A DNA stretch of 64,000 bases from Bacteroidales bacterium (lineage in GTDB: Bacteria > Bacteroidota > Bacteroidia > Bacteroidales > UBA10428), in contig JAFGIP010000034.1 in NCBI GenBank assembly GCA_016929525.1, positions 1 through 64,000 on the forward strand. Reading direction: 5' to 3'. The position numbers and the translations under genes are program-made. The notes under the pieces were generated by a model, which ran no database searches, was not told the origin of the DNA, and was given only the letters and a program-made list of their open reading frames with translations. This document shows, piece by piece, positions 35,717 through 59,799 of the stretch (position 1 is the first letter of the stretch; every line of letters starts with the position of its first letter).

Positions 35717-35743
35717 ATTGCCTATTAAATAGGGATGCGATTT

Positions 35744-35830
35744 GGCCCCATAGTTCAAGGGACACCTGCCTGCCGGTAAACTGTCAGCAAGGATAGTCAG
35801 GCAGGGAATAGCAGTTTCCTGAACTGATGG
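35744..35830 (+). pseudogene. Broken 5' copy of tRNA-Arg(CCU), interrupted in the D-loop
   Basis: GGCCCCATAGTTCAAGGG at 35744-35761 is identical to the first 18 nt of the intact tRNA at 35848. A palindrome-bearing insert (about 35763-35805) follows. Then GAATAGCAGTTTCCTgAACTG continues the D-stem and anticodon arm with one change in the loop. Homology stops after the anticodon stem; no T-arm or acceptor 3' strand follows. It cannot fold as a tRNA. Confidence 0.75.
35765..35805. repeat. Palindromic element CCTGCCTG...CAGGCAGG, copy 2
   Basis: Perfect 8-bp arms CCTGCCTG (35765-35772) and CAGGCAGG (35798-35805) surround a 25-nt loop. They are the same arms as at 317-345. This copy lies within the D-loop of the partial tRNA-Arg copy, which shows that the element, or its spread, post-dates the tRNA duplication. 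Confidence 0.65.
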
Positions 35831-35847
35831 AAAATAAGAATAATAAT

Positions 35848-35919
35848 GGCCCCATAGTTCAAGGGAAAGAATAGCAGTTTCCTAAACTGTAGATCCTGGT
35901 TCGAGTCCAGGTGGGGCTA
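35848..35919 (+). tRNA. trnR: tRNA-Arg (anticodon CCU)
   Basis: A 72-nt cloverleaf. The acceptor GGCCCCA pairs with TGGGGCT (35912-35918; G1-U72 wobble), with discriminator A at 35919. The D-stem is GTTC with GAAT. The anticodon stem is GCAGT with ACTGT around the loop TTCCTAA, anticodon CCT at 35881-35883, which reads AGG. The T-stem is CCTGG with CCAGG and the loop is TTCGAGT. CC follows the discriminator but not A, so CCA is completed after transcription. A terminator follows. Confidence 0.93.
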
Positions 35920-35924
35920 CCGCG

Positions 35925-36203: not shown

Positions 36204-36881
36204 TCATCCTTTAGTGCTTATCATTAAAAGGGACTCTCTTTTTTTTATTTCAATATTACGTCCTCTAATCTTGATTATTCCATCTTTTTCAAATTCTGTC
36301 AGTACCCTGCTTACACTTTCCCTGGTAACATCTACAAGATTACCAATTTCTTCCTGCGTAAGGGGCATATTAAAATATTTTGTGTTAAATATTTTATCTG
36401 AGAATTCCAGTAATACATCAGCGATTTTACCCCTCATCTGTTTTTGTGTCCTGTTTGCACAACGATAAAAAACTTCCAGCTCTGTTCGGCATAGTTCCAT
36501 CATTATCTCATGTGTGAAATCTGTATTTGATTTGAGTAAGTATCTGAAAGCAGAAATATCAATAAAGCATACTTCAGCTGTATCTACTGCTGTAACGGAA
36601 TACTGATTGATCTTATCTCCAAAAGTGGTAGGCAGGCCAAGATAGCAAGGAGCTTTTACAATACGCACAAGTTGCTCATGATATGGTCCTGTTATATGTA
36701 TTTTTGCCAGACCGTTTCTCAAATATGCAACGTTGGTTGAAAATGCACCCTGTTTGATAATAGCATCTCCTTTAACAAATTTTACCATGGTGCAGTTGAA
36801 CGACAGCCTCTCAATTTCTTCATCTTTGAGTTTTGCAGCTGCCTTCGACTTTATATTGCACAGTTTACAAACATTATTCAT
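36204..36881 (-). CDS. Crp/Fnr-family transcriptional regulator
   Basis: A 225-aa regulator. The N-terminal cyclic-nucleotide-binding-like beta barrel covers ~20-140. The C-terminal winged helix is 'LTQEEIGNLVDVTRESVSRV' (174-193). Its recognition helix has Arg187-Glu188 and Arg192, the spacing of E. coli CRP Arg180-Glu181-Arg185, which read TGTGA. Cys5, Cys8 and Cys30 near the N-terminus (CKLC...C) suggest a possible metal or Fe-S site, as in Fnr, but the spacing is not that of E. coli Fnr. The gene is divergent from the sulfur/electron-transfer operon, with a TGTGAT-N4-ATCACA palindrome between. It is the likely controller of that operon and of itself. Confidence 0.92.
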   Translation of the reverse strand: MNNVCKLCNIKSKAAAKLKDEEIERLSFNCTMVKFVKGDAIIKQGAFSTNVAYLRNGLAKIHITGPYHEQLVRIVKAPCYLGLPTTFGDKINQYSVTAVDTAEVCFIDISAFRYLLKSNTDFTHEIMMELCRTELEVFYRCANRTQKQMRGKIADVLLEFSDKIFNTKYFNMPLTQEEIGNLVDVTRESVSRVLTEFEKDGIIKIRGRNIEIKKRESLLMISTKG

Positions 36882-36899
36882 AATATAAAGATAACAATA

Positions 36900-36917
36900 T
36901 TGTGATACACATCACAT
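36900..36917. promoter_or_regulatory. Predicted Crp/Fnr-family operator
   Basis: TGTGAT ACAC ATCACA (36901-36916) has perfect 6-bp arms, the CRP-type spacing TGTGA-N6-TCACA. With T36900 it reads TTGTGA-N6-TCACAT, one base from the TTGTGA-N6-TCACAA site described for HcpR regulators of anaerobic and sulfur genes. It lies 19 bp upstream of the regulator start and about 90 bp before the DsrE-like start, a position that allows self-control and control of the operon. A weak -7 box, TTTATTTG (36971-36978), may serve the operon. Confidence 0.7.
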
Positions 36918-37003: not shown

Positions 37004-37435
37004 ATGGCTATGGAAAATAAAAAAATGTGTCTCGGTTTATACACAGGAAGTGTTGATAAACTAACTGCTGCTGGTGTAATCTTAAGCGGTGCTGCAGCAA
37101 ATGATATGGAAGTAGATATTTATGTTCTGTTACAGGCAGCACGTGCTTTTAAAAAGGATATCGGAGATGATGCCAGTAAACTGAATATGGCCGAGAATGC
37201 TGAATTTAAAGATGAGTTTATGGCTTCGCTTAACAATTTAAATGTAAAAACCTGGGTTGAATTTTTTAAAGAAGCAAAAGAAATAACAAATGTGAAAATT
37301 CATATCTGTGGTCTTGCGGGAAAAGTTTGGGGTGGTGAAAAGTTAGAAGATTTTATTGACCTCGCCGATGATATTTGCGGTATAGGAGCTTATATCGAAT
37401 CAGCAGAAGAAGCTGATATTAATCTTTTTATCTGA
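37004..37435 (+). CDS. DsrE-like sulfur-relay family protein
   Basis: A 143-aa soluble protein, first gene of the operon. It begins MAMENKKM (the ATG at 37010 is an alternative start). The pattern 'CLGLYTGSVDKLTAAGVIL' followed by 'NDMEVDIYVLLQAARAF' is that of the DsrE/DsrF-like fold. 'VKIHICGLAGKVWGG' holds the conserved cysteine region. Members carry persulfide sulfur or act in redox sensing, often beside TusA and HdrABC-like genes. A 51-bp gap leads to the TusA-like gene. The role of this paralogue is inferred from its neighbours. Confidence 0.82.
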   Translation: MAMENKKMCLGLYTGSVDKLTAAGVILSGAAANDMEVDIYVLLQAARAFKKDIGDDASKLNMAENAEFKDEFMASLNNLNVKTWVEFFKEAKEITNVKIHICGLAGKVWGGEKLEDFIDLADDICGIGAYIESAEEADINLFI

Positions 37436-37486
37436 TCAGAGTTTGGCACGTTTTATAATTGATTTTGATGATTAAAAACTTTAAAA

Positions 37487-37738
37487 ATGAATACAGAAGA
37501 ATTAAAAACACTGGAACCAACAAAAACTGTTGATGCAAGAGGAACTGCTTGTCCAGGTCCTTTATTGGAAGCTAAAAAAGCTATTGGAACCATAAATCCT
37601 GGTGATATTATGGAAGTTTGGTCTGCGGATGAAGGTACTAAAGCGGATATTCCGAAATGGTGTAAAAAGCAGGGGCATGAGTATCTGGGAACAATTGATG
37701 AGCCCGGTTATTTTAGGATATTTCTGCAGAAAAAATAA
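37487..37738 (+). CDS. TusA-family sulfur carrier
   Basis: An 83-aa protein with 'VDARGTACPGPLLEAKKAI' (15-33); Cys22 in the CPxP motif is the persulfide-bearing cysteine of TusA. Small TusA proteins move sulfane sulfur between enzymes, for example from rhodanese or DsrE to a downstream enzyme. It lies between DsrE-like and FlpD-like genes, with only 5 bp to the latter. The context argues for sulfur delivery to or from the electron-transfer complex rather than tRNA thiolation alone. Confidence 0.92.
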   Translation: MNTEELKTLEPTKTVDARGTACPGPLLEAKKAIGTINPGDIMEVWSADEGTKADIPKWCKKQGHEYLGTIDEPGYFRIFLQKK

Positions 37739-37743
37739 CTTTC

Positions 37744-38145
37744 ATGAACGAGTTTGGCAGAAAACAAGCAAAAATCCTCGTTTTTTCAACAGAAAAGATA
37801 TCAGATCCTGCCATTGATATGGCAGGACTGTTAAAGCAGTATTATCCTGCGGGAGTATATGTTATTTCATTACCATGCTCTTCTGCAGTAAAACCGAGAT
37901 GGATATTGCATGCGTATGAGAAAGGATTTGACGGGGTATTCATTGCTGCCGATGGCAGTGATTGTCCCCATGATGAATCGTGTACTGAAAAAACAGGACG
38001 CATAGTTATGCAGACTCATGAAAAAATGAAAGAAATGAACTTGGATCCCGCAAGATTAAGAATGGCAGCTATATGTTCGGTTTGCAGCGAAGCATTTGTA
38101 AAGCAGATGAAGAGTTTTAATGATTATCTGGGGAATGAATCATGA
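37744..38145 (+). CDS. FlpD/MvhD-like hydrogenase Fe-S subunit
   Basis: A 133-aa protein of the MvhD/FlpD family (PF02662). 'YVISLPCSSAVKPRWILHAY' and 'GFDGVFIAADGSDCPHD' are the family motifs, with Cys45, Cys74, Cys80, Cys111 and Cys114 as possible [2Fe-2S] ligands. In methanogens MvhD passes electrons from hydrogenase or dehydrogenase to HdrA, and in QmoB the same domain is fused at the C-terminus. Here it is a separate protein. It overlaps the HdrA/QmoA-like gene by 4 bp (ATGA). No hydrogenase subunits are adjacent, so the electron donor is unknown. Confidence 0.88.
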   Translation: MNEFGRKQAKILVFSTEKISDPAIDMAGLLKQYYPAGVYVISLPCSSAVKPRWILHAYEKGFDGVFIAADGSDCPHDESCTEKTGRIVMQTHEKMKEMNLDPARLRMAAICSVCSEAFVKQMKSFNDYLGNES

Positions 38146-39449
38146 TAATGCAGCAAGAAATGGGGAAAGTGACATACGATGCAATAGTTGTTGGAGGAGG
38201 TATAGCCGGATGTGAGGCAGCACTTAATATCGCTAACAATGATTTCAATGTTCTTTTAATTGAAAAGGATCTTTCTGTCGGAGGAAAGATGATTTTATTG
38301 AGTAAAGTATTTCCTACACTCGATTGTTCTGCCTGCATCACTACTCCGAAAATTTCTGAAATGGCACGTCATCCGAATATTACAATATTTACGGGTAGTG
38401 AACTACAAAAAGTATCAAAATACGGGGATAATCTATTTGAAGTAAGTATAGTAAAAAATCCACGATATGTAAATATTGAAGATTGTACCGGATGTCAACT
38501 CTGTGAGCAAGCATGCCCTGTTACTGTACCTGATCAGTACCAGTTAGATATGGTAGGTAGGAAAGCTGCGTATATACCATTCAGCATTGCAAATCCAAGG
38601 GTTGCCGCAATTGACATCGATAATTGTACTTTATGCGGAGCTTGCGAAAAGGTCTGTCCGACTAAATGTATCGACTTCACTCAGGAAAAAGAAGAATGGA
38701 TAATTCATGTTAAAACCGTCATACTGGCAACGGGATTTAATCTTTTCAATCCGGAGATGATACCCAGATATGGTTTCGGGTTATACAAAAATGTGGTTAC
38801 TTCAATGCAAATGGAAAGACAACTGGCCCCGACACGTCCTTTTCATACTGTTTTAAGACCAGGTGACGGTAAAGTTCCAGACAGGATTGCTTATATCTTG
38901 TGCACGGGGAGCAGGGATGCAAGTGTTGGGAATACAATGTGTTCTCAGATTTGTTGCATGTATTCGATTAAACAGGCACAACTTCTAATGGGAGCTCTTC
39001 CCATGGCTGATGTAACAATTTATTATATCGATATAAGAGCTTTTGGCAAGGGATTTAATGAGTTTTATGAGCAGGCTCTGGGTATGGGGGTGAATTTTGT
39101 AAAAGGGAAAATTGGTAAAATATCCGAGAAAAAAAATGGTGACCTGGTGCTTCGTTATGAGGATGTCTGTAGCGGGAAGCTACAGGAAGCTGAACACGAT
39201 ATGGTTGTACTTTCTGTCGGAGTGGTTGCAAATCAGGATGCCCAAAAGTATTTTACGGATCTGACTCTTAAAAAAGATCGTCATCATTTTGTCCAACAGG
39301 TTGATCCTTTATTAAATCCTTCTAAAACCAGTATTGAGGGAGTATTTGTTGCCGGTTCTGTTTCAGGACCCATGGATATTCCGGATTCAATTCTTTCTGC
39401 AGGGGCAGCATCTGTTGAAGCTATCAATCATATTATTCAGTTTTCATGA
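38142..39449 (+). CDS. HdrA/QmoA-like flavin Fe-S protein
   Basis: A 435-aa protein. 'AIVVGGGIAGCEAALNI' (14-30) binds FAD. 'TLDCSACITTPKISEMARHP' (Cys62, Cys65) is a conserved HdrA element. Two ferredoxin-type [4Fe-4S] sites follow: C115-C118-C121-C125 and C162-C165-C168-C172. The length near 400 aa and the absence of the N-terminal HdrA iron-sulfur insertion fit QmoA rather than full HdrA. It is coupled by 4-bp overlaps to its neighbours on both sides. It is expected to form a heterodimer with the next protein and hand electrons to or from the membrane subunit. Confidence 0.88.
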   Translation: MIMQQEMGKVTYDAIVVGGGIAGCEAALNIANNDFNVLLIEKDLSVGGKMILLSKVFPTLDCSACITTPKISEMARHPNITIFTGSELQKVSKYGDNLFEVSIVKNPRYVNIEDCTGCQLCEQACPVTVPDQYQLDMVGRKAAYIPFSIANPRVAAIDIDNCTLCGACEKVCPTKCIDFTQEKEEWIIHVKTVILATGFNLFNPEMIPRYGFGLYKNVVTSMQMERQLAPTRPFHTVLRPGDGKVPDRIAYILCTGSRDASVGNTMCSQICCMYSIKQAQLLMGALPMADVTIYYIDIRAFGKGFNEFYEQALGMGVNFVKGKIGKISEKKNGDLVLRYEDVCSGKLQEAEHDMVVLSVGVVANQDAQKYFTDLTLKKDRHHFVQQVDPLLNPSKTSIEGVFVAGSVSGPMDIPDSILSAGAASVEAINHIIQFS

Positions 39450-41377
39450 AGAAGAAAATAGGGGTTTATATATGTCATTGCGGCGGGAATATCTCAGATT
39501 ATGTAGATGTTGAGAAAGTATATGCTGAAGTAAGAAATGAAAAAGGAGTTGCATTGGCAAAAATAACCATGTTTGCCTGTGCCGATGCAAACCAGAAGGA
39601 AATGGAAGCAGACATACCGGAAAAAGATTTGGATGGAGTTGTAGTTGCTTCCTGTTCTCCTCAGCTTCACCTGACCACATTCAGAGCGGTTGTGGAAAGA
39701 GCCGGATTAAATAAGTATGACTATGTTCATGCAAATATACGTGAACAGGGTTCCTGGGCTCATTCTGATAATAAATCAGGGGCAACTGAAAATGCAATTC
39801 ATGTTGTTAAAGCAGCTATTGCTAAAGTACGAAATGCAGAATCACTGGAACCGATAAAAATTTCATCTGTAAAAGCAGTAGCTGTTATCGGCGCTGGTGT
39901 TTCGGGAATGAGATCGGCGATTGCACTCGCAAAGGCAGGATGTAAGGTTTACATTATTGAAAGAGATCATTTCGTTGGTGGCAGGGTTGCACAGTGGGAA
40001 AATCTTTTTTCGACCAATGAGACAGGAGAAGAGATAATTAAGCGATTATACAATGACACTATTAACAACGATAATATTACTCTTTATACAGGGGCTCAGG
40101 TTTTGTCTCAGTCAGGGAATATTGGTAGTTACAGACTAAAAGTACAGATAAATCCGGGATTTGTCAGAAATTCTGTGTATTCCTATGAAATGGATGAAGC
40201 AATAAGTGTATGTCCGATTAAAATTCCTGACTTGTTCAATTTTGGTTTTACACAACGAAAAGCAATTTACCGGAATCATTCGGGGCAGTTACCCATAATG
40301 GCAGTTATAGATGATGAAAATTGCACCAGATGCGGCGATTGTGAAAAAGTTTGTAAAGACATTGATTTCTCTCAGCAAAAGAAAGAAATTAATATTGAAG
40401 TCGGTTCTGTATTAGTTGCATCAGGTTTTGATACATATACTCCTAAAAACAATGAATTTGGATACTGTGTAATAGACAATGTAATAACACTGCCTCAGCT
40501 CAAAAGACTGGTGGCAATGAGTGACAGACATTTGGAATACAAAGGGAATAGAATAAAAAATATTGCATATATCTATTGTGTTGGCAGTCGACAACTTGAC
40601 GGAGAAAATAAATATTGCTCACGTTATTGTTGCACGGCAGCGATACATACAGCAACTGAAATAAGGCGGAAATATAAAGAGATTAATAATTATCATTTTA
40701 CCAGGGGAGTAAGAACTTATGGTAAGCAGGAAATTTATTATAGCGAGGCGCTTAAAATGGGTGATGTGTTTATGCAATCATTCGATAATGAGCTTCCCGA
40801 AGTATTACAGAAAGGCAATAAGACATTTGTCAAAATAAAAGATATTCTTACAGAACAAAAAGAACTGAAACTGCAGGCAGACCTTGTTGTACTTGTAACT
40901 TCCATGGTACCTCGTGATGGGATATCAGTCAATGATTTGTTTAAATTACCTAAAGGAAGGGATGGTTTCCTGAAAGAAATTCATTTAAAACTCCGGCCGG
41001 TGGAAACTGTAATTGATGGAATTACCATTGCAGGGTGTTGCCAGGGTCCAATGAATCTTACAGAATCAGTAAATTCTGCACTTTCTGCTGCAACAAAATC
41101 ATATTCATATGTCAGCAAGGGTGAGCTTGAACTGGAACCAATCATTGCAAAGGTTGATAAAGAAGCTTGTACCTGGTGTGATGCCTGTTTCAAAGCTTGT
41201 CCTTTTGATGCTATTATTAAGGTGGAAGAAGGTTTCAAAGTATTTGCCAGGGTTAGTGATTCGATTTGCAAAGGATGTGGAATGTGTCTTCCGGTATGTC
41301 CTAAGGATGCAATTGAATTAAATTCTTACACAAATCGTGAAATTGAGGAAATGATTGATATGTTGGCATCAGATTAA
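39446..41377 (+). CDS. HdrA/QmoB-like flavin Fe-S protein
   Basis: A 643-aa protein. The N-terminal ~140 residues carry the HdrA iron-sulfur domain (Cys10, Cys12, Cys45, Cys70). 'VIGAGVSGMRSAIALAKAG' (147-165) binds FAD. A central ferredoxin site is C293-C296-C299-C303. Two C-terminal [4Fe-4S] sites are C575-C578-C581-C585 and C608-C611-C614-C618. It resembles full-length HdrA and QmoB, but lacks a fused MvhD domain, which is supplied in trans by the gene at 37744. A flavin-based electron-bifurcating role is possible; the sequence alone does not prove it. Confidence 0.88.
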   Translation: MKKKIGVYICHCGGNISDYVDVEKVYAEVRNEKGVALAKITMFACADANQKEMEADIPEKDLDGVVVASCSPQLHLTTFRAVVERAGLNKYDYVHANIREQGSWAHSDNKSGATENAIHVVKAAIAKVRNAESLEPIKISSVKAVAVIGAGVSGMRSAIALAKAGCKVYIIERDHFVGGRVAQWENLFSTNETGEEIIKRLYNDTINNDNITLYTGAQVLSQSGNIGSYRLKVQINPGFVRNSVYSYEMDEAISVCPIKIPDLFNFGFTQRKAIYRNHSGQLPIMAVIDDENCTRCGDCEKVCKDIDFSQQKKEINIEVGSVLVASGFDTYTPKNNEFGYCVIDNVITLPQLKRLVAMSDRHLEYKGNRIKNIAYIYCVGSRQLDGENKYCSRYCCTAAIHTATEIRRKYKEINNYHFTRGVRTYGKQEIYYSEALKMGDVFMQSFDNELPEVLQKGNKTFVKIKDILTEQKELKLQADLVVLVTSMVPRDGISVNDLFKLPKGRDGFLKEIHLKLRPVETVIDGITIAGCCQGPMNLTESVNSALSAATKSYSYVSKGELELEPIIAKVDKEACTWCDACFKACPFDAIIKVEEGFKVFARVSDSICKGCGMCLPVCPKDAIELNSYTNREIEEMIDMLASD

Positions 41378-41391
41378 TAAAAATTATTGAA

Positions 41392-41670
41392 ATGGATACG
41401 GAAAAGGGGAATACTGTAAAATTATTAAAAGAAAAACGTAAAGTATCAACGGAGGCTAAAGAGAAGCTCAAAGAATTTACGCGTACTAAAAAAGCTATCA
41501 TGAATGCATTAAACGGTGAAGATCTAACGATAGCACAGTTGTCGGAAAAGCTTTCTTTGCCTTATAACGAAGTGGTTTATTATCTCATGTCGCTTCTGAA
41601 ATTTGGATTGGTTCAGGTTGGGGAGATTGATGATATGGATGAATATTTTACTTATAAGGTGGTGAAATAA
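41392..41670 (+). CDS. Small winged-helix-like protein in the Hdr/Qmo operon
   Basis: A 92-aa protein with a basic N-terminus and a helix-turn-helix pattern, 'NGEDLTIAQLSEKLSLPYNE', followed by 'VVYYLMSLLKFGLVQVG', typical of a winged helix. It has no cysteine, so no metal site. It starts 14 bp after the QmoB-like gene and its stop overlaps the next ATG, so it is made in fixed proportion to the complex. It might be a DNA-binding regulator or a structural assembly partner; the sequence does not decide. Confidence 0.75.
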   Translation: MDTEKGNTVKLLKEKRKVSTEAKEKLKEFTRTKKAIMNALNGEDLTIAQLSEKLSLPYNEVVYYLMSLLKFGLVQVGEIDDMDEYFTYKVVK

Positions 41671-42725
41671 TGGGAACATTAAATGCAAAATTTGGGAAAA
41701 AATTGGCAAAATATGGCACATTTGATTTCAGTGCCTGTTATAACTGCGGTAACTGTACAGCAGTTTGCTCTTTGACTGACCAGGAAGAATCTTTCCCAAG
41801 AAATATGGTTCGTTATAGTGTTCTTGGTCTCGAAGATGAAATTAAATCGTCACTGAAGCCATGGTTATGTTATTATTGCGGTGATTGCTCTGCTTATTGT
41901 CCACAGGAAGCCTTCCCCGGGGAATTGATGATGTCACTCAGACGATGGCTTACTTCCCGTTACGACTGGACCAGGCTCGCGGGATTATTTTATAGGTCTG
42001 TTATATGGAATATTATTGCATTCTTGCTTATAGCTGCAGGTGTGATAACCTATGCATTTCATGTTAATTTCTCTCTGGAACATGTTATGCATGTAGGGCA
42101 TTTATTCGAAATAGTAGCGATAGCAGCTGTATTCGCCATTATTCTGATGCCGAATATTGTTCGTATGTGGTGGTTTACTATTGCAAAATCCGGGGAAAAG
42201 ATACCTGTTAAAGCTTATTTAATATCGTTGAGGGAATTATTCCTGCACATGTTTACACAGAAAAGAACCCTCGACTGCGAAAAGCACACTTTCAGATGGC
42301 TTGAGCACCTGATACTTGTTATTGGATATCTGACATTGCTTTTTACTACTGTTTTTCTTGATTGGTTCTCAGCCCGGAATAAAATTGTTATAGTATTTGG
42401 CTATATCGTTAGCGGATTAGTATTTATTGTGACTTTTCATTTTGTATTTAATAGGATAATAAAGTCGAAAGAAGTTAGCAGGTTTTCACATCATTCCGAC
42501 TGGTTTTTTGTGATCTGGTTATTCTTCATGGGAATAACAGCCTTTGTAGTTCGCTTATACATTGATATCAACATTATTGAAGATAATCTTTGGTTATATC
42601 TGGTTCATTTAATTATTCTTGTACAGTGGGCTGTTATAATCGTACCATTTGGTAAATGGACCCATTTCCTGTACCGTTCTTTTGCAATGTATTTTAAAAA
42701 AGTGTTAACCTCAGCAAATCAGTAA
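41670..42725 (+). CDS. QmoC-like HdrC-cytochrome b fusion
   Basis: A 351-aa protein. The N-terminal HdrC-like part has two [4Fe-4S] sites: C23-C26-C29-C33 and C67-C70-C73-C77. The C-terminal ~240 residues form about six membrane helices resembling HdrE/NarI cytochrome b, with candidate haem histidines at 206, 213, 257 and 312. The same fusion defines QmoC, which connects the Qmo complex to menaquinone. It is the last gene of the operon. No HdrB (CCG-domain) gene is adjacent, so it is not a classical heterodisulfide reductase. A terminator follows at 42812-42836. Confidence 0.88.
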   Translation: MGTLNAKFGKKLAKYGTFDFSACYNCGNCTAVCSLTDQEESFPRNMVRYSVLGLEDEIKSSLKPWLCYYCGDCSAYCPQEAFPGELMMSLRRWLTSRYDWTRLAGLFYRSVIWNIIAFLLIAAGVITYAFHVNFSLEHVMHVGHLFEIVAIAAVFAIILMPNIVRMWWFTIAKSGEKIPVKAYLISLRELFLHMFTQKRTLDCEKHTFRWLEHLILVIGYLTLLFTTVFLDWFSARNKIVIVFGYIVSGLVFIVTFHFVFNRIIKSKEVSRFSHHSDWFFVIWLFFMGITAFVVRLYIDINIIEDNLWLYLVHLIILVQWAVIIVPFGKWTHFLYRSFAMYFKKVLTSANQ

Positions 42726-51498: not shown

Positions 51499-53664
51499 TC
51501 ATACTTCAATATCGTGGTGTGTTTCCAATAAGATTTTAAGCATTTTGATGGCAGCAATAGTAACTGAAGTACCAGGGCCAAAAATAGCGACTACTCCTGA
51601 ATTATAAAGAAACTCATAATCCTGTGCAGGGATTACACCACCTGCTATGACCATAATATCATCTCGTCCTAATTTTTTTAATTCCTCTATGACCTGAGGG
51701 ATCAATGTTTTATGTCCGGCAGCAAGACTGGATACACCCAAAATATGCACATCATTTTCTACAGCCTGGCGGGCTGCTTCAGCCGGTGTTTGAAAAAGTG
51801 GTCCTACGTCAACATCAAAGCCTACGTCTGCATAGCCTGTTGATACAACCTTTGCACCACGATCATGACCATCCTGTCCCATTTTAGCTACCATAATTCT
51901 TGGTTGGCGTCCTTCTTTTTTAGCGAATTGTTCACAAAGTTCCCGTGCCTTTTTAAAGTTAGGATTTTCGGAAGTCTCGGCAGAATATACACCGGAGACT
52001 GAGCGAATAACCGCTTTGTATCTTCCAGCAATTTCTTCAATGGCATAAGAAATTTCTCCCAGAGTTGCCCTTGCTTTGGCTGCTTCAACTGACAGTTCAA
52101 GAAGATTACCTTTTCCTGATCGGGCTGCTTCGGTAATTTTATATAAGGTGTTTTTAACAATATCATTATCGCGTGATTCTTTAAGTTCTTTTAAACGACG
52201 TATTTGAGCTTCACGCACTGCTGTATTATCTACTTCAAGAATATCAATTGGATCTTCCTGTTCAAGACGGAACTTGTTTACACCAATAATGCTATCCTTA
52301 TTGGCATCAATACGGGCCTGTTTTCTTGCGGCAGCTTCTTCAATTCTCATTTTAGGCACCCCGGTTTCGATAGCTTTTGCCATACCTCCAAGTTTTTCTA
52401 TTTCCTGAATATGCTTCCATGCTTTATGAGCCAGTTCATGAGTAAGTGATTCAACATAGTACGAACCTGCCCATGGATCAACACTTCTGCATATTTGGGT
52501 TTCTTCCTGTATGTATATCTGGGTATTTCTGGCAATTCGGGCAGAAAAATCAGTAGGTAATGCTATTGCCTCATCAAGTGCATTGGTATGCAAAGACTGG
52601 GTATGTCCCAGCGCGGCAGCCATTGCTTCAACACATGTTCGGGCAATATTATTAAAGGGATCCTGTTCTGTGAGACTCCAGCCTGACGTCTGCGAATGGG
52701 TGCGCAACGCTAGCGATTTAGGATTCTTCGGATTGAATTGTTTCACGAGTTTTGCCCATAGCATACGGGCTGCGCGCATTTTTGCTATCTCCATAAAATG
52801 ATTCATTCCCACAGCCCAGAAAAATGACAACCGGGGAGCAAAAGAATCGATATCCATACCAGAATTTACTCCTGTTCGAAGGTATTCCAAACCGTCGGCA
52901 AGAGTGTAGGCCAATTCAATATCGGCAGTAGCCCCGGCTTCCTGCATATGGTAACCGGAAATGCTGATGGAATTGAATTTAGGCATATTCTTCGATGTAT
53001 ATTCAAATATATCCGCTATAATACGCATCGACATTTCAGGCGGATAGATGTAAGTATTACGAACCATAAATTCCTTTAAGATATCGTTCTGGATTGTACC
53101 ACTCAGTTCTTCCAGACTGGCTCCCTGTTCAAGGCCTGCAACAATGTAAAAAGCCATTACCGGCAATACAGCACCATTCATAGTCATTGAAACCGACATT
53201 TTATTTAAAGGGATCTGATCAAAAAGAATTTTCATATCGAGTATGGAATCTATGGCTACACCGGCTTTACCGACATCACCAACTACTCTCTCATGATCAG
53301 AATCGTAGCCCCGATGTGTTGCAAGATCGAAAGCAACTGATAAACCTTTTTGACCGGCAGCAAGGTTTCTCCTGTAAAAAGCATTTGATTCTTCTGCAGT
53401 AGAAAATCCGGCATACTGTCTGATAGTCCAGGGGCGCATCACATACATGGTGGAATAGGGGCCTCTGAGGTAAGGACTAATACCGGCAGCATAATCGAGA
53501 TGCTCCAAATGCAACAGATCTTCCTTTGTATAAACCTGCTTAACAGGGATCTGTTCTGCCGTAATCCAATCCGCAGATATATGATTTTTCCTATCCCAAT
53601 CGGCAATATTTAGCTTCTTTCCCTCGGTTTTTTTAATGTTTATCTTACTAAAGTCTGGCTTCAT
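51499..53664 (-). CDS. mutB: Methylmalonyl-CoA mutase, large (catalytic) subunit
   Basis: A 721-aa adenosylcobalamin enzyme that interconverts succinyl-CoA and methylmalonyl-CoA. The N-terminal TIM barrel has '[20 protein letters not shown]' and '[17 protein letters not shown]'. The C-terminal cobalamin domain carries '[11 protein letters not shown]', whose His is the lower axial cobalt ligand, and '[12 protein letters not shown]'. It pairs with the small subunit (57653-55767), but a GH2 gene is interposed. It serves the propionate route of Bacteroidota fermenters. 202 bp separate it from the GH2 gene, and a palindromic element lies in that gap. Confidence 0.97.
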
Positions 53665-53796
53665 AAATGACCTTTTTTATCTTATTTGAATAGATTCGAT
53701 ATTATGTCTAATTTCTTATAGTTATAAATGGGGAATATATCTGTTTAATATTTTGTGAGATTTTGTGCTTTGTGTATTAGTGGCTGATAAAATTTT

Positions 53797-53824
53797 GCCA
53801 CAATTCCGATAACTATCGGAACAC
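53797..53824. repeat. Palindromic element TTCCGATA..TATCGGAA, copy 1
   Basis: Perfect arms TTCCGATA (53804-53811) and TATCGGAA (53814-53821) around AC. Read on the minus strand, the flanks GTG and TTGTG match the second copy at 63786-63813, so about 26 of 28 bases agree. It lies between the GH2 and mutB genes. Confidence 0.65.
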
Positions 53825-53866
53825 TAAATCGCAAATAAACACCAAAGCTCACACCCGAATTATATT

Positions 53867-55699
53867 TTACTTCTTATCATTATAATATTTCTGTAATATG
53901 AAATAAGCTTTCTTTTTTTCTCCCTTTTCTGAAAGGAGACCTTTACGGTTAAAATCTTCCTGGATCTCTGCCAATGGACGCCGTGGTGATCTGAAATCAA
54001 CCAGTATCCAGGGTGACATTCCGCACAAACCATCAATTTTGTCTAACATTTCAAGGTTTCGTATGTACAGATCTTCCTGGAATTCTTCGGTCCAGCGAGT
54101 ATCAGCATCACCATGATAACCATATTTGGCACCGCCGCCAAATTCACTTATAAAAACTGGTTTCTCATATGCGATTTCCCATTCAGTAGTGTCGCATTTG
54201 GCAGGAAGGCCATCATACCAACCAATGTACTGGTTATAACTAACAATGTCAACAATTTCTGCCAGCGGATCCTCAACAACTGCTACAGAAGGATCATCTT
54301 TTTTATAGTGTTTTTCCATGGCAGTACTTACTAACCTGGTATCATCAAGCGAATGAACGTGTTCAACAAGTTTTGTCAAAAATGATGTTCGATCGGGTCT
54401 TACGGGAGTTTCATTTGATACTGACCAAATGATCACCGAAGCACGGTTTCTGTCGCGCAGGATGTTCTCAGTTAACTGGTTCCTTGCATTAGCAAACGTT
54501 TCCCTGTTTGTCCAGTCAATAGTCCAATAAACGGGGATCTCAGACCAGACCAAGATACCTTTATTATCTGCTAATCTTATCATATCTTCATTGTGCGGAT
54601 AATGTGCTAATCGGACAAAATTACAACCCAGTTCAAGCGCCCAGTCAAGTAACTGCTCTGCTTTTCTTTTTTCATTAACACGCCCTCCTCCTTCGGCAGC
54701 GAATTCTTCATGGATAGAAATGCCTTTCAGGAAAATGGGTTTATCATTTAATAAAAGCTGTTTTCCTTTTACACTTATTGTCCTGAAACCTACAAGATCT
54801 GACAGATTATCTTCACCCGCAATTATATTTATTTCATATAATTTGGGGTTATCAGGACTCCACAAATCAAGATTTTTAGCCGTAAAAGAGAAATTTGCTT
54901 TACCGTTCTGAGCTGCATTTAATTTCAGTTTGATCTTAAGTTCAGGGACAGAGAAGACAATTTCCTGACCTTCGCTGCAGTTTTCAAGCAGAATACTACC
55001 ACTGACCTTTTTGTTCTCAGCAGATTCAAGTTTAATGGAATAGTCCCTGATAAATACCTCCGGAAGAACAACCAGCTTAACATCCCGGGTAATCCCTCCG
55101 TAATTCCACCAATCGGTATTTAAAGTTGGGACACCTTCTTTTGATCTTTTATTATCAACTTTTAGTACTAAGGAGTTATTGTTAGTTTTTAGCAAATCAG
55201 AAATTTCAAAGTGAAATGGAGTGAACCCCCCAATGTGAACTCCAAGTTTAACACCATTAAGATAAACGTCGGCACGATAATTTACTGCGCCAAAGTACAG
55301 ATAAACTTTATCTGTTTCTTTTTTTCCCGGAGCATCAAATTTTTTCCTGTACCAGATTGAACCCTCATAATAATAGAACCTGGGATCCTGTGTATTCCAA
55401 TCACCGGGAACAAATAAAGTTTCAGCTTTATCGAAATTATATTCTATCAGATCGGTTGAAGTTTGCATCCGGGCATCCATAAAAAATGCAGATAACCAGG
55501 GATTTTCCATCTGATCGAACGGTTCCCAACGGTAGTTATAAAAACCATTTTCATAAGGATCGACAATAATATTCCAATTGCCGCTGAGAGAAACAGTTTC
55601 ACGCGTGTAGACCTGTAATGATTCATTTCCCATCAATGCTGTGAAAAATAAAACATTGAGCAGTAATACTGTGATTGAATTTTTGGTGTAGTTTTTCAT
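53867..55699 (-). CDS. Glycoside hydrolase family 2 (beta-glucuronidase/galactosidase-like)
   Basis: A 610-aa exported enzyme with an N-terminal signal peptide. The sugar-binding domain contains 'GSIWYRKKFDAPG' and 'NYRADVYLNGVKLGVHIGGF'. An Ig-like domain and then the TIM barrel follow: 'FVRLAHYPHNEDMIRLADNK', 'IIWSVSNETPVRPD' with acid/base Glu430, and 'VFISEFGGGAKYGYHGD' with nucleophile Glu519. The pattern resembles UidA-type enzymes, but beta-galactosidase or beta-mannosidase activity cannot be excluded. It lies between mutA and mutB in the same direction, which is unusual. Confidence 0.92.
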   Translation of the reverse strand: MKNYTKNSITVLLLNVLFFTALMGNESLQVYTRETVSLSGNWNIIVDPYENGFYNYRWEPFDQMENPWLSAFFMDARMQTSTDLIEYNFDKAETLFVPGDWNTQDPRFYYYEGSIWYRKKFDAPGKKETDKVYLYFGAVNYRADVYLNGVKLGVHIGGFTPFHFEISDLLKTNNNSLVLKVDNKRSKEGVPTLNTDWWNYGGITRDVKLVVLPEVFIRDYSIKLESAENKKVSGSILLENCSEGQEIVFSVPELKIKLKLNAAQNGKANFSFTAKNLDLWSPDNPKLYEINIIAGEDNLSDLVGFRTISVKGKQLLLNDKPIFLKGISIHEEFAAEGGGRVNEKRKAEQLLDWALELGCNFVRLAHYPHNEDMIRLADNKGILVWSEIPVYWTIDWTNRETFANARNQLTENILRDRNRASVIIWSVSNETPVRPDRTSFLTKLVEHVHSLDDTRLVSTAMEKHYKKDDPSVAVVEDPLAEIVDIVSYNQYIGWYDGLPAKCDTTEWEIAYEKPVFISEFGGGAKYGYHGDADTRWTEEFQEDLYIRNLEMLDKIDGLCGMSPWILVDFRSPRRPLAEIQEDFNRKGLLSEKGEKKKAYFILQKYYNDKK

Positions 55700-55766
55700 T
55701 CTGATAATTCATTTAAATGTATTAACTCTTTTGGATGTCATGCATTAATGGTGGAGGAGGGTACTT

Positions 55767-57653
55767 TTATATTCCTAATAATTTGTTATAGTTTTTAAGT
55801 TCATTGAGTATATTAGATTTTATGTGAATAAAGTTTGTAATCCCAATAGCTTTTAATTCTTCCATACATGCAGGAGCACCTGCAACCGCAACAATAGCTT
55901 TCCTGTCAATCAATTTATAGACTTTTGGCGCAATATCGGCATATTCATCATCACTACTACATATAACTACAATATCAGCCTTTCTTTCAAGAGCTTCTTT
56001 CACACCATCTTCGATGGTATCAAATCCGTTATTATCAATAATTTCATAACCTGCACATGCAAAGAAACCTGATGAAAATCCGGCACGTGCTTTCCTCATT
56101 AATGGATTTCCATAGGTAAGCAGGAATACTACAGGTTTTTTGCCTTTATGTTTTTCAACAGCAAGGCGAAGTTTTTCAAACTCGGTAGCACCTCTTGATT
56201 GTTTTATGGGTTCAATTAAAGTATTGGACAACTTTTCTGTTGGAAATGCAATTTCTTCAACAATAGAGTCTTTTACTTCTTCCTGTATATTTGGATACTG
56301 ATTGGTTCCAAGCAACACTTCTTTTCTGGTTGATAAACGTTCTTTTCTTTTTGAAACTGTTAAACCAAGTTCTTTCTGGATATTTCCCTTTTTTAAAGAT
56401 TCAAGATAACCTCCGTCACTGTCTATATTCAGGAAAAGTTTCCAGGTTTCTTCAATTATGCTATCTGTTAAATTCTCGATATAATAAGAACCTGCACCGG
56501 GATCTACAATTTTATTGAAATATGATTCTTCTTTTAAGATAATCTGAATATTACGCGCAAGGCGACCGGAAAATTTAGAAGTCTCTTTATAAGAAAAGTC
56601 AAAAGGGCGTACGGTTAAAGAATCAGTACCACCAAGTACAGCTGCCATTGATTCAGTTGTTGTACGTAATATGTTTACATACGGATCGTAAATTGTTTTA
56701 TTCCAGTCGGATGTAAAAGACTGTATATATGCTTTTTTTGACTCTTCTTTTTCAGGATGATATGATTCGACGATTTTAGACCATAAATACCTTGCAGCTC
56801 TTATTTTGGCAATTTCCATGAAATAGTTCGATCCTACACCAAAATTAAATTGCAGATGATGACAGATTTTGTCGATATTGTGCCCGTCAGATGTTAATCT
56901 TGAAAGATATTCAACGGCCATAGCAAAACTAAATGCAAGTTCCTGAACAACAGTTGCCCCGGCATTATTAAAGAAATATCCATTAATTCCAAGAATTCTA
57001 TAATTAGGAAGATGATCGATAGTAAAACTGAGTAACTGATTGAGCTGATAAAAATCGGTTTCTTCGCTTTGTCCGAAATTTCCGCTGATACTGAGATAAC
57101 CCAAAGGATCAAAATCTACTGAGCCATGAATCTTTTCAGGGTCAATATTTTTGTTTTCAACTTCTTTTTGAAGGTATCCGACTATTACAGGAGAATTATT
57201 TCCGCATACAAAGTTCAGGTAAATACAATCTATGTAGATGCCATTCAGTAATCGGCTGAAATCGTCCTGAGTTTTAAGAATACAGTTATCAGAAAGCCTT
57301 CCCATCCTAAATCCCAATGAAGAAATTCCTCTTTCCAGAATAAAAAGAGATTTCTGGTTTGCAATATCAATATCTTCAAGTTTTATATCCTGTCTTATTT
57401 CCCAGTCATTCGAGAATATTTTGGTTCCCCGGTTATAAGGGGGCATTCCGGGAAGAGTTTCCAGGTATTTCTTATCTTCAAGATGCTCTCTTCTGTAATA
57501 TGGGGCGACTTTAAATCCTTCGGGTGTATTCCAGATAAGTTTTTTATCATAATCAGCCCCTTTCAAATCGGCTTTAATCTGTTCTTCCCACTTATGCGTT
57601 GATACCGGTGGAAATTCACCAAAGAGTTTTTCTTTTTTAGGTTGCTCGGTCAT
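55767..57653 (-). CDS. mutA: Methylmalonyl-CoA mutase, small subunit
   Basis: A 628-aa partner of MutB. It keeps the barrel ('YKETSKFSGRLARNIQIILK', 'IVDPGAGSYYIENLTDSIIE') and a C-terminal cobalamin-like domain that lacks the DGHDRG histidine motif, as expected for the non-catalytic subunit. 'GTDSLTVRPFDFSY' is conserved. It follows the beta-barrel gene by 18 bp, and the GH2 gene begins 67 bp after its stop. In most Bacteroidota mutA and mutB are adjacent. Confidence 0.95.
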   Translation of the reverse strand: MTEQPKKEKLFGEFPPVSTHKWEEQIKADLKGADYDKKLIWNTPEGFKVAPYYRREHLEDKKYLETLPGMPPYNRGTKIFSNDWEIRQDIKLEDIDIANQKSLFILERGISSLGFRMGRLSDNCILKTQDDFSRLLNGIYIDCIYLNFVCGNNSPVIVGYLQKEVENKNIDPEKIHGSVDFDPLGYLSISGNFGQSEETDFYQLNQLLSFTIDHLPNYRILGINGYFFNNAGATVVQELAFSFAMAVEYLSRLTSDGHNIDKICHHLQFNFGVGSNYFMEIAKIRAARYLWSKIVESYHPEKEESKKAYIQSFTSDWNKTIYDPYVNILRTTTESMAAVLGGTDSLTVRPFDFSYKETSKFSGRLARNIQIILKEESYFNKIVDPGAGSYYIENLTDSIIEETWKLFLNIDSDGGYLESLKKGNIQKELGLTVSKRKERLSTRKEVLLGTNQYPNIQEEVKDSIVEEIAFPTEKLSNTLIEPIKQSRGATEFEKLRLAVEKHKGKKPVVFLLTYGNPLMRKARAGFSSGFFACAGYEIIDNNGFDTIEDGVKEALERKADIVVICSSDDEYADIAPKVYKLIDRKAIVAVAGAPACMEELKAIGITNFIHIKSNILNELKNYNKLLGI

Positions 57654-57671
57654 TTTAGTAAATATCTCAGT

Positions 57672-58382
57672 TTATAATCTGTACACAATACCAATACCGA
57701 TGTTTAAAGATTGTATCGGTAAAGAAAAATTAGTTTTTTCAACTACCGGAAGTTCCTCATTTTCTTCAAGAGTTTCCTTAATTATTTCTCCCTTAGCTTT
57801 CGATATAAAATAACTGGAATATATACGGACAGAATAAAGTTCACTTAAATGGTATCTTATGCCAATTCCCAAATCGACACCAAAACTAACATCCTGACTC
57901 AATAATCTTCTGTTAAATTCAGTTTCATCTACTTGTGCATTAATTTCAAAATCTGGTGTCATTACGAAATTTGGACCAGCTAATGCATAAATATCTAAAG
58001 TTAAATTATCAGACGGAATTGTTAACTGAGGGCCAACGAGCAAAGCAACCTGCTTCCATATACCGAGGGTATATGTGTATTCAAGATCACCTGAAAACTC
58101 TGGAGGGAGCTGTTCGTCAAGCCTATCCTTTAATTTAGTTTCGTTTAATGTATTTGACGTGAATTTTATGTCTCCTCCGATTCCGAAGTAATCTGTAAGA
58201 AAATAAGCACCTGAATAATCTCCTGCAAAACCGCTCAGAGCAAAGCCTTTGCTATCAGGATCAGAGCTCCCTCCAAAATTTGCCAATGGCTTGGTAAGAC
58301 CAAATGTCAATGATATATAATGATCCTGGCCGAAAGAATTCATAGAGATAATAGTAAGAAGAATTATTATATTCTTTTTCAT
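57672..58382 (-). CDS. Outer-membrane beta-barrel protein
   Basis: A 236-aa exported protein. The signal peptide is 'MKKNIIILLTIISMNSFG'. Alternating hydrophobic strands and an ending 'SLNIGIGIVYRL', with an aromatic or hydrophobic terminal strand, point to a small porin-like barrel. 'FGIGGDIKFTSNTL' and 'GVDLGIGIRYHLSELYSVR' are also strand-like. It lies between fumC and mutA with 18-19 bp gaps, so it may be part of the same transcript. The function is unknown. Confidence 0.78.
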   Translation of the reverse strand: MKKNIIILLTIISMNSFGQDHYISLTFGLTKPLANFGGSSDPDSKGFALSGFAGDYSGAYFLTDYFGIGGDIKFTSNTLNETKLKDRLDEQLPPEFSGDLEYTYTLGIWKQVALLVGPQLTIPSDNLTLDIYALAGPNFVMTPDFEINAQVDETEFNRRLLSQDVSFGVDLGIGIRYHLSELYSVRIYSSYFISKAKGEIIKETLEENEELPVVEKTNFSLPIQSLNIGIGIVYRL

Positions 58383-58401
58383 GTATTTCAGATTATCAGG
58401 T

Positions 58402-59799
58402 TTAATCTAATGATCCGATCATTTTTGAAGGTACTACCCATTCATCGAACTGTTCCGGTGTAACAAGGTTAAGTGCAACTGCGGCTTCTTTTAATGTTGT
58501 ATTTTCTTCATGTGCTTTCTTCGCGATTTTGGCAGCATTTTCATATCCGATATGTGTATTCAGCGCAGTTACAAGCATCAATGAATTTTCAAGATGCGAT
58601 TTTATCCGTGAATAGTCTGCTTCAATTCCAACTGCACAGTTGTCATTAAACGCTTTACAGGCATCTCCGAGAAGATTAGCTGATTGTAACAGATTCGCGA
58701 TCATTATAGGTTTAAAAACGTTAAGTTCGAAATGGCCGTTGCTGCCACCAATTGATATTGCTACATCATTACCCATTACCTGGGCACAAACCATGGTCAG
58801 TGCTTCAACTTGTGTCGGGTTTACTTTTCCCGGCATTATCGATGATCCAGGCTCATTGGCAGGGATGATAATTTCACCTATTCCTGAGCGCGGTCCTGAA
58901 GCCAGCATGCGAATATCATTTGCTATCTTCATAAGGCTGACGGCAAGTTGTTTTAAGGCTCCATGTGTTTCTACGATGGCATCATGAGCAGCAAGCGATT
59001 CAAATTTGTTTTCTGCGCTTATAAAAGGATGGCCTGTTAATTTTGCAATTTGTTTTGCTACTTCTTCTGTGTAACCCTTCGGGGTGTTCAGTCCCGTTCC
59101 AACTGCAGTACCACCAAGTGCCAGTTCTGTCAAATGTGGTAAAGTATTTTTGATTGCTTTAATTGCATGATCTATTTGAGAAACGTAACCTGAGAATTCC
59201 TGACCGAGTGTAAGCGGTGTAGCATCCATCCAATGTGTTCGTCCAATTTTAACGACATTTTTCATTGCTTCTGATTTTGACTGCAGCGTATTTTTCAAAA
59301 GTTCTACCCGTGGAATAGTGTGTTCAACAATTTTTTTATATGCTGCAATATGCATGGCAGTGGGAAAAGTATCATTAGATGACTGCGATTTGTTCACGTC
59401 ATCGTTAGGATGAATAAGATGTTGACCTTCTCCAAGTTTACCGCCGTTCAGAACATGTGCACGGTTTGCGATAACCTCATTGCTATTCATGTTTGATTGG
59501 GTTCCGGAACCGGTTTGCCATATTACAAGAGGAAACTGATCATCGAGATCACCTGCAATAATTTCATCGCATACCTTGCTGATGAGTTCGGTTTTTTCAC
59601 CGGATAGTACACCAAGTTTGTTATTGGTGATTGCTGCAGCCTTTTTCAGATATCCGAAAGCACGAATTATTTCAATCGGCATTGATGAGGCGGGACCAAT
59701 TGGAAAATTCATTACCGAACGCTGGGTTTGTGCACCCCAGTATTTTTCGGCAGGGACCTTAATTTCTCCCATTGTGTCTTTTTCGATTCGGTATTGCAT
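58402..59799 (-). CDS. fumC: Fumarate hydratase, class II
   Basis: A 465-aa iron-independent fumarase that hydrates fumarate to malate. '[13 protein letters not shown]' is the superfamily signature loop. '[19 protein letters not shown]' at the N-terminus and '[12 protein letters not shown]' and '[12 protein letters not shown]' are typical of FumC. It reads in the same direction as the beta-barrel gene and mutA, 19 bp upstream of the former. Fumarase and methylmalonyl-CoA mutase both lie on the route from oxaloacetate through fumarate and succinate to propionate. Confidence 0.97.

Follow-up and report, generated by a model that had tools for sequence, protein, structure and literature searches.

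The DNA analysed here, referred to as the window, is a stretch of 64,000 nucleotides from a Bacteroidales bacterium (assembly GCA_016929525.1, contig JAFGIP010000034.1; genome G000), and it carries at positions 37004-42725 a seven-gene operon that apparently encodes a real, widely conserved, and unnamed complex, a variant within the Hdr/Qmo superfamily by sequence comparison. All seven open reading frames (ORFs) lie on the plus strand and code, in this order, for a DsrE-type sulfurtransferase, the sulfur carrier TusA, an FlpD/MvhD homologue (FlpD), two HdrA-type flavin/iron-sulfur (Fe-S) proteins (designated opA and opH), a small winged-helix protein, and a QmoC-like HdrC-cytochrome b fusion (Table 1). 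It is proposed that carriers of sulfane sulfur, a soluble carrier of low potential, and menaquinone are linked by one three-port, membrane-attached Hdr-family complex, possibly by electron bifurcation, a proposal to which we give about an even chance of being correct. In the open-access literature, no paper describing this operon could be found, as judged by title or the start of the abstract. A preliminary description of the window had listed the same seven genes, domains, and order, with which the ORFs and the Pfam and NCBIfam assignments agree; its statement that overlaps of 1-4 bp link most of the genes holds for three of the six junctions (4, 4, and 1 bp), the other three being gapped by 51, 5, and 14 bp.

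The conservation of this gene set was examined by scanning an opH alignment against a genome collection (84,980 species according to its description), which yielded at least 592 pattern matches; locus counts out of 80 refer to the best 80 of at least 366 confirmed relatives. All seven genes could be detected in 57 of the 80 loci, with no order violation among these 57, which excludes a chance association and indicates that the order, whose survey across Bacteroidota had been suggested by the preliminary description, is not unique to one genome and that the linkage of DsrE and TusA to the flavin subunits is conserved. The individual genes were called in 80 (opH), 77 (opA), 76 (winged helix), 76 (QmoC-type), 68 (FlpD), 66 (TusA), and 62 (DsrE) loci. 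Sixteen of the other 23 loci end at a contig edge, three carry a long DsrE2 instead, one (L049) was lost to a position filter, and three had room for all genes with one gene uncalled (QmoC in L069, DsrE in L084, and TusA in L100).

According to the record titles, the relatives are mostly Bacteroidales, Bacteroidetes, or Bacteroidota, together with three Krumholzibacteriota, one Aminicenantes, and one Chlorobiota metagenome-assembled genome (MAG), and two copies of the operon are present in G277, a genome of another family. When 295 genomes of the class were searched with opH, four reached E <= 1e-60, namely the own genome, G277, G275, and G170, the loci of the last two being other Hdr clusters. 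The FlpD profile matched 10 of 40 relatives (3 of 9 within the genus), only the own genome among 395 evenly drawn genomes of the phylum, 16 of 80 genomes from the phylum to which the Krumholzibacteriota MAG L085 belongs, and 13 of 247 from that of the Aminicenantes MAG L057. Among 14 stretches from the former phylum, five (L135, L136, L141, L142, and L144) run from DsrE to QmoC in the order of the window, two (L139 and L143) run from TusA to QmoC with DsrE beyond QmoC, and seven are cut by contig ends, so that the TusA-to-QmoC order is kept in 7 of 14. The same order is kept in 6 of 7 Aminicenantes-phylum stretches, five with DsrE before TusA and one (L161) with DsrE beyond QmoC, the seventh (L163) being cut. 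Because the best single BLAST segment of several HdrA-like genes in the opH position of these two phyla is the mvhH2 of the own genome, opH orthology there rests on position, plus residues for L123 and L143. In terms of gene content, the system is an accessory module in three phyla.

Both flavoproteins match HdrA structures in the PDB (opA 2e-113, opH 5e-130), placing them in the HdrA family with its flavin adenine dinucleotide (FAD) core and HdrA-type Fe-S motifs, and both match NF040770, the HdrA-type flavin/Fe-S model (2.5e-143 and 2.3e-163), well under its whole-protein cut-off of 1100 bits. Residues were counted in alignments with fixed length limits (62 rows for DsrE, 67 for TusA, 71 for FlpD, 71 for opA, 82 for opH, 76 for the winged helix, and 76 for QmoC), which include the window and G277 copies. 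The equivalents of HdrA Cys197, E356, and K409 are kept in opA as C65, E225, and K277, and C62, C65, E225, and K277 are all present in 71/71 rows. In opH, the N-terminal cysteines are present in 82/82 rows; none of the 82 has Cys at 193 or 196, Glu at 353, or Lys at 401 (the equivalents of Cys194/197, E356, and K409). The insert of opH has also lost the three cysteines of its first motif, with C256, C293, C296, and C299 kept at 98-100% and C303 at 93%, a pattern that would fit the loss of one of two clusters. Six other HdrA/Qmo comparators keep both Glu and Lys. In the published work, which is cited here by PMC number, Cys197 of one HdrA subunit serves as a ligand to the N-terminal cluster of the other, heterodimers were inferred for tandem HdrA genes with complementary loss (PMC9012536), and K409 and E356 are the residues tied to bifurcation (PMC12054007). 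By these residue patterns, opA and opH appear to complement each other as the two halves of an asymmetric HdrA dimer. The opA CxxC (C62/C65) was also considered as a redox-active disulfide, which was set aside since the position of C65 in the alignment is that of Cys197, which is known to ligate a cluster. In addition, FlpD, opA, opH, and the winged-helix protein covary (Mantel r 0.74-0.87, 32 loci).

Similar arrangements are known from archaea and from hydrogenase-linked systems. The tandem and NfnB/GltD-inserted HdrA proteins of anaerobic methanotrophic (ANME) archaea share with the operon the complementary loss of the N-terminal domain and Cys197 as well as, in some members, a GltD/NfnB insertion within the ferredoxin insert, whereas the operon is bacterial, is coupled to TusA/DsrE and a cytochrome b, and has an opH without K409 and E356 (PMC9012536, PMC12054007). 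The bifurcating HdrABC-MvhAGD and Elp-Hdr complexes (PMC12350162) agree with the operon in the flavin/Fe-S architecture of HdrA and in having a docking subunit like MvhD; in contrast, the window type has no HdrB among its seven genes, an asymmetric HdrA pair, remodelled FlpD cysteines, and sulfur carriers in place of hydrogenase or formate dehydrogenase. A closer case is found on contig C113 of the own genome (L010, 7630-15782), where two HdrA-type genes, an HdrC-cytochrome b gene, mvhD, mvhG, mvhA, and a maturation protease gene form an Hdr-[NiFe]-hydrogenase operon. It shares with the window type the two HdrA, MvhD, and an HdrC-cytochrome b, the last having 55% identity to the QmoC-like protein of one G277 copy; on the other hand, L010 has the MvhA/MvhG hydrogenase where the operon has sulfur carriers, both of its HdrA proteins keep Glu and Lys, and its MvhD has the canonical cysteines. 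Judging from these genes, L010 is the hydrogenase version of the window operon and includes a paralogue of the QmoC-like subunit.

The sulfur side of the operon is represented by DsrE, TusA, and FlpD. The catalytic Cys of the TusA CPxP motif (C22) is present in 67/67 rows and DsrE C102 in 62/62, the latter rows mixing short orthologues and long DsrE2. By length filters, the 62 loci with upstream room comprise 39 with a short DsrE and 24 with a long DsrE2-like protein (six with both), giving at least one form in 57, and five with neither; four of these five have a DsrE match in an ORF over the length filter, leaving only L084 without DsrE. A further DsrE-fold protein of 122-130 aa occurs in six loci (assigned by Pfam in L055). 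The five cysteines of FlpD are found in 71/71 rows and in 28/28 loci from a later search, eight of which repeat earlier genomes (L107, L108, L109, L111, which is the window, L125, L129, L132, and L149) and 20 of which are new. In an AlphaFold2 model, the MvhD fold of FlpD is kept (template modelling score 0.82 to MvhD 5odh_D), and the protein is without two of the four cysteines common to the compared MvhD and QmoB tails, having C80, C111, and C114 instead; in the MvhD of the own genome, a Cys is offset by one column from FlpD C80, and C111-x-x-C114 lies at the start of the last helix in the model. The suggestion of an Hdr-family complex for electron transfer that has both a membrane subunit and sulfur carriers of its own is supported. 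These carriers could also be viewed in the light of sulfur housekeeping, that is, persulfide handling for detoxification or for Fe-S or tRNA thiolation and not for respiration. Relatives of TusA and DsrE serve tRNA thiolation in other bacteria, and the patchy accessory distribution would be compatible with such a role; however, the membrane cytochrome b and the Hdr pair are conserved alongside the carriers, and, unlike what would be expected of a housekeeping set, 30 of 40 relatives (a number of them incomplete genomes) gave no match to the operon FlpD, which makes this explanation unlikely.

The membrane port would be formed by the QmoC-like subunit, in which the eight Fe-S cysteines are present in 76/76 rows, H213 in 76/76, and H332 in 75/76. 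Its NF038018 score of 136 bits is below the cut-off of 300, which is exceeded by the canonical QmoC of the own genome (393 bits). The winged-helix protein is fused to the C-terminus of opH in three relatives, L122, L123, and L124 (profile E values 2e-26, 1e-21, and 2e-20), and it is thus most likely a subunit. Given this fusion, a role mainly as transcription factor is unlikely; a persulfide sensor is unsupported, as the window protein has no Cys. Among the 50 fold matches listed out of 1909, which by description are ArsR/MarR-type and other winged helices, none is described as DsrD, and homology to DsrD gains no support from these listed matches.

Several natural variants throw further light on the ports. 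The opA of the same L122, L123, and L124 contains a GltD/NfnB-type NAD(P)H domain inside the ferredoxin insert (Pfam in all three, NCBIfam in two), and opA proteins of similar size (892-932 aa) occur in L138, L139, L143, and 6 of 7 Aminicenantes-phylum loci, the domains having been checked for L122-L124 alone. In these NAD(P)H-type variants, opH lacks the insert or its cysteines, K277 of opA is kept in 6/6, and His stands at the K409 position of opH in 5/5. In L122, which is from the same genus, a short HdrC and a CCG protein assigned by Pfam replace QmoC (1953-3244). Such fusions and swaps point to a constant core of TusA, FlpD, opA, opH, and the winged-helix protein, usually together with DsrE, the soluble port and the output being exchangeable. 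These gene orders, residue patterns, fusions, and variants can be seen directly in the sequences, and from them we infer complex formation, the sulfur substrate, bifurcation, and direction.

A possible mechanism may be outlined as follows. DsrE and TusA would pass sulfane sulfur (Cys-S-SH) to or from the docking subunit FlpD, whose new cysteines may face the carriers, and electrons would move between FlpD and the asymmetric opA-opH HdrA heterodimer, with the Fe-S wiring at the N- and C-termini provided by opH, and the sole bifurcation-competent FAD together with the ferredoxin-type insert by opA. The insert would exchange electrons with ferredoxin in the window type or with NAD(P)H in the relatives carrying the GltD/NfnB insert, the HdrC-cytochrome b would trade electrons with menaquinone, and the winged-helix protein may be a structural or regulatory subunit. 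The sulfur/sulfide couple lies at -270 mV. Ferredoxin at -450 mV and menaquinone at -74 mV (PMC10734219) have a mean of approximately -262 mV, and since this is close to the value for sulfur/sulfide, the complex could form H2S by confurcating electrons from reduced ferredoxin and from menaquinol onto sulfane sulfur; in the reverse option, electrons from sulfide would be bifurcated. We lean towards the reductive direction, in fermenting anaerobes.

Bifurcation or confurcation is suggested by the presence of three ports and of one flavin equipped with the bifurcation pair. The full version of this reading, a bifurcating or confurcating complex with TusA/DsrE-bound sulfane sulfur as the mid-potential substrate and with ferredoxin or NAD(P)H plus menaquinone as partners, appears possible rather than probable. 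A two-port chain is a competing explanation: a persulfide:menaquinone oxidoreductase without bifurcation, comparable to sulfide:quinone oxidoreductase or polysulfide reductase but cytoplasmic, passing electron pairs between TusA/DsrE sulfur and menaquinone only. It would agree with the loss of the Glu/Lys pair from every opH row, with the QmoC-type gene in 76 of the 80 loci, and with the fact that electron flow from sulfide to menaquinone is downhill. On the other hand, opA retains the pair in 71/71 rows, and its ferredoxin insert, be it intact or split by an NAD(P)H domain, would be superfluous for a two-port chain, which leaves this explanation rather doubtful.

A number of observations weigh against the proposed three-port complex with bifurcation. 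Several of its Cys-rich subunits could serve a simple two-port chain. DsrE is inconstant: 8 of the 14 Krumholzibacteriota-phylum stretches and one of the seven Aminicenantes-phylum stretches have no DsrE call next to TusA (in three of these nine, DsrE is sited beyond QmoC), no upstream copy was found in L084, and TusA is uncalled in L100. DsrE and QmoC also covary least with the other subunits (r 0.30-0.44 and 0.30-0.53, respectively), near-invariant His residues in QmoC number only two, and the menaquinone link is not universal because L122 is without QmoC. In the NAD(P)H-type variants, Asp replaces E225 of opA in 5/6, and Glu is found at the E356 position of opH in 2/5. Among 401 archaeal HdrA proteins, K409 is absent in 15.2% and E356 in 21.7% (PMC12054007), so that the residue loss in opH defines no mechanism. 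YedE is not enriched at the genome level, being present in 35 of 52 operon genomes and, among relatives, in 2 of 9 that have the operon and 16 of 30 that do not, by which its role as an obligate genome-wide partner was rejected. Moreover, all 80 relative records are MAGs, and the evidence comes from sequence comparison and modelling.

The likeness to the Qmo of sulfate reducers, emphasized in the preliminary description, was examined by phylogeny and genome searches. HdrB, AprAB, and DsrAB were indeed not detected nearby, none occurring among the 18 window proteins scanned with Pfam (the remaining window ORFs were outside the scan), yet contig C9 of the own genome carries aprB, aprA, qmoA, qmoB, and qmoC (L009, 6426-13870). 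As had been noticed, FlpD is a separate gene in the operon; it is fused in this canonical QmoB. In the trees, opA and opH each form a single clade (100/100) and QmoA and QmoB group together (100/99), and forced groupings of opA with QmoA and opH with QmoB were rejected in the approximately unbiased (AU) test (p-AU 0.013 and 0.0016, respectively); the comparators were three QmoA and three QmoB of type I from operon-bearing genomes, some branches are long, and one row with an end branch of 9.8 in the first tree was omitted from the second together with five further rows. Thus, the expected placement of opA and opH holds at the level of the HdrA family and fails at that of the type I QmoA+QmoB clade.

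Genes of sulfate reduction are also rare among operon carriers. AprA exceeded the cut-off in 7 of 52 operon genomes (50 of the 80 loci plus G000 and G277). No dsrA was found in any of the 52 (51 genomes, and the own genome searched separately), which are mostly MAGs with completeness figures for G000 and G277 alone; 14 control genomes likewise gave no dsrA or aprA over the cut-off and thus provide no positive control of their own, the aprA search being confirmed by its seven matches. Matches to sat (TIGR00339) were absent from 13 genomes, including the own genome and all seven with aprA. The genome search thus revealed aprBA in the own genome, with neither dsrA nor sat (TIGR00339) found there. 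A Qmo complex that feeds AprAB, whether for sulfate reduction or for sulfite oxidation, could draw on the QmoC-like subunit, the two HdrA-type flavoproteins, and the aprBA of the own genome; given the trees, the rarity of aprA, the lack of dsrA matches, and the separate qmoABC beside aprBA, with its QmoC above the cut-off, the type I form of this explanation was rejected, and we consider the explanation as a whole extremely unlikely. What the operon shares with type I QmoABC and type II Qmo is a pair of HdrA-family flavoproteins and an HdrC-cytochrome b, with a menaquinone link by inference; compared with type I, to which the comparison is confined, it has its own TusA, DsrE, separate FlpD, and winged helix and is not accompanied by AprAB. 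Type II Qmo occurs with or without Dsr/Apr, and its role is unclear (PMC10504309).

As a separate observation, aprBA-qmoABC clusters were present in Bacteroidota genomes without a dsrA or sat (TIGR00339) match (L009, L103, and L105), CysDN and other enzymes handling adenosine 5'-phosphosulfate (APS) being outside the search; in these genomes APS reductase would thus stand apart from the partners that normally accompany it. A four-helix protein of the 23S_rRNA_IVP type (by Pfam for L103, by sequence likeness for L105) lies between aprB and aprA in L103 (9462-9833) and L105 (9326-9694) and does not occur there in the own genome.

Other sulfur-metabolizing systems show partial resemblance. The defining parts of sHdr are HdrB1/B2 and LbpA, and none of these is among the seven genes, to which the search for LbpA was confined. 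TusA and DsrE adjoin Hdr subunits in Metallosphaera as well (PMC4175335), which would accord with an sHdr-like complex oxidizing sulfane sulfur to sulfite; with no HdrB-type CCG protein or lipoate carrier in the set, and the Pfam-confirmed CCG protein confined to the L122 variant, such an activity is very unlikely. The YTD cluster of sulfur disproportionators (PMC12998232) likewise combines TusA with DsrE, and YedE-like genes lie near some operon loci; in contrast, the seven genes include no YedE and have Hdr/cytochrome b subunits instead, CHP1-3 being outside the search. YTD DsrE and CHP1-3 have been reported solely from Desulfobacterota, Nitrospirota, and Acidobacteriota. Around the 80 loci, genes named by likeness as YedE-like (8), rhodanese-like lipoprotein (11), and porin-like (7) were observed; YedE and rhodanese were assigned by Pfam in the G277 cassette (L104), a cassette type in which the porin-like gene stands alongside. 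A molybdopterin oxidoreductase gene lies downstream in four loci (by Pfam in L042). In the own genome, contig C78 (L101, 5953-11562) encodes in a single run a PhsA-like molybdoenzyme with Fe-S and NrfD-type subunits, two half-size YedE proteins, and a rhodanese.

The operon provides a concrete marker by which a probable sulfur-linked energy metabolism can be traced in anaerobic lineages without a dsrA match; this metabolism would escape dsrAB-based surveys and, for the most part, aprA-based ones. Should the three-port reading hold, electron bifurcation would be extended to sulfane sulfur, a new substrate class, and an unrecognised sulfur respiration would exist in uncultured Bacteroidales and other phyla. 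The fusions and swaps make specific biochemical tests possible.

Upstream of the operon, a divergent regulator of the Crp/Fnr family and a palindrome were found (Table 1). In a set of 43 rows including the window (minus-strand regulators of >200 aa and >38% identity), C5, C8, and C105 of the regulator are present in 43/43, and candidates for a fourth Cys, compared with the four [4Fe-4S] cysteines of FNR, are C30 (34/43) and C141 (41/43). The palindrome occurs with at most one mismatch in 35 of the 43 loci, versus none of 43 in one mononucleotide shuffle of each, and it is probably the site of the regulator.

Table 1. Operon genes and upstream regulatory features, in window positions
Feature	Positions	Strand	Support
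Crp/Fnr-family regulator, divergent, N-terminal CxxC	36204..36881	-	Pfam HTH_Crp_2 + cNMP_binding
Palindrome TGTGA-N6-TCACA between regulator and operon	36901..36916	no strand	exact in window
DsrE-type sulfurtransferase, single conserved Cys102	37004..37435	+	Pfam DrsE_2 6e-9
TusA sulfur carrier, C22 in CPGP	37487..37738	+	Pfam TusA 4e-24
FlpD/MvhD homologue, Cys set C45, C74, C80, C111, C114	37744..38145	+	FlpD 1.5e-26
opA, HdrA core: FAD site and intact 2x[4Fe-4S] insert, without N-/C-terminal Fe-S domains	38142..39449	+	
opH, HdrA-like: N-terminal Fe-S domain and C-terminal 2x[4Fe-4S]	39446..41377	+	
Small winged-helix protein, zero Cys	41392..41670	+	weak HTH_5
QmoC-like HdrC (2x[4Fe-4S]) fused to cytochrome b membrane domain	41670..42725	+	NF038018 136 bits

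Elsewhere in the window, a tRNA-Arg (CCT) is located at 35848-35921; ahead of it lies an imperfect copy of the first half of this tRNA, with an inserted stretch (span 35742-35921). At 51499-59799, a family 2 glycoside hydrolase gene lies between two methylmalonyl-CoA mutase-type genes, with a fumarase-type gene beyond.

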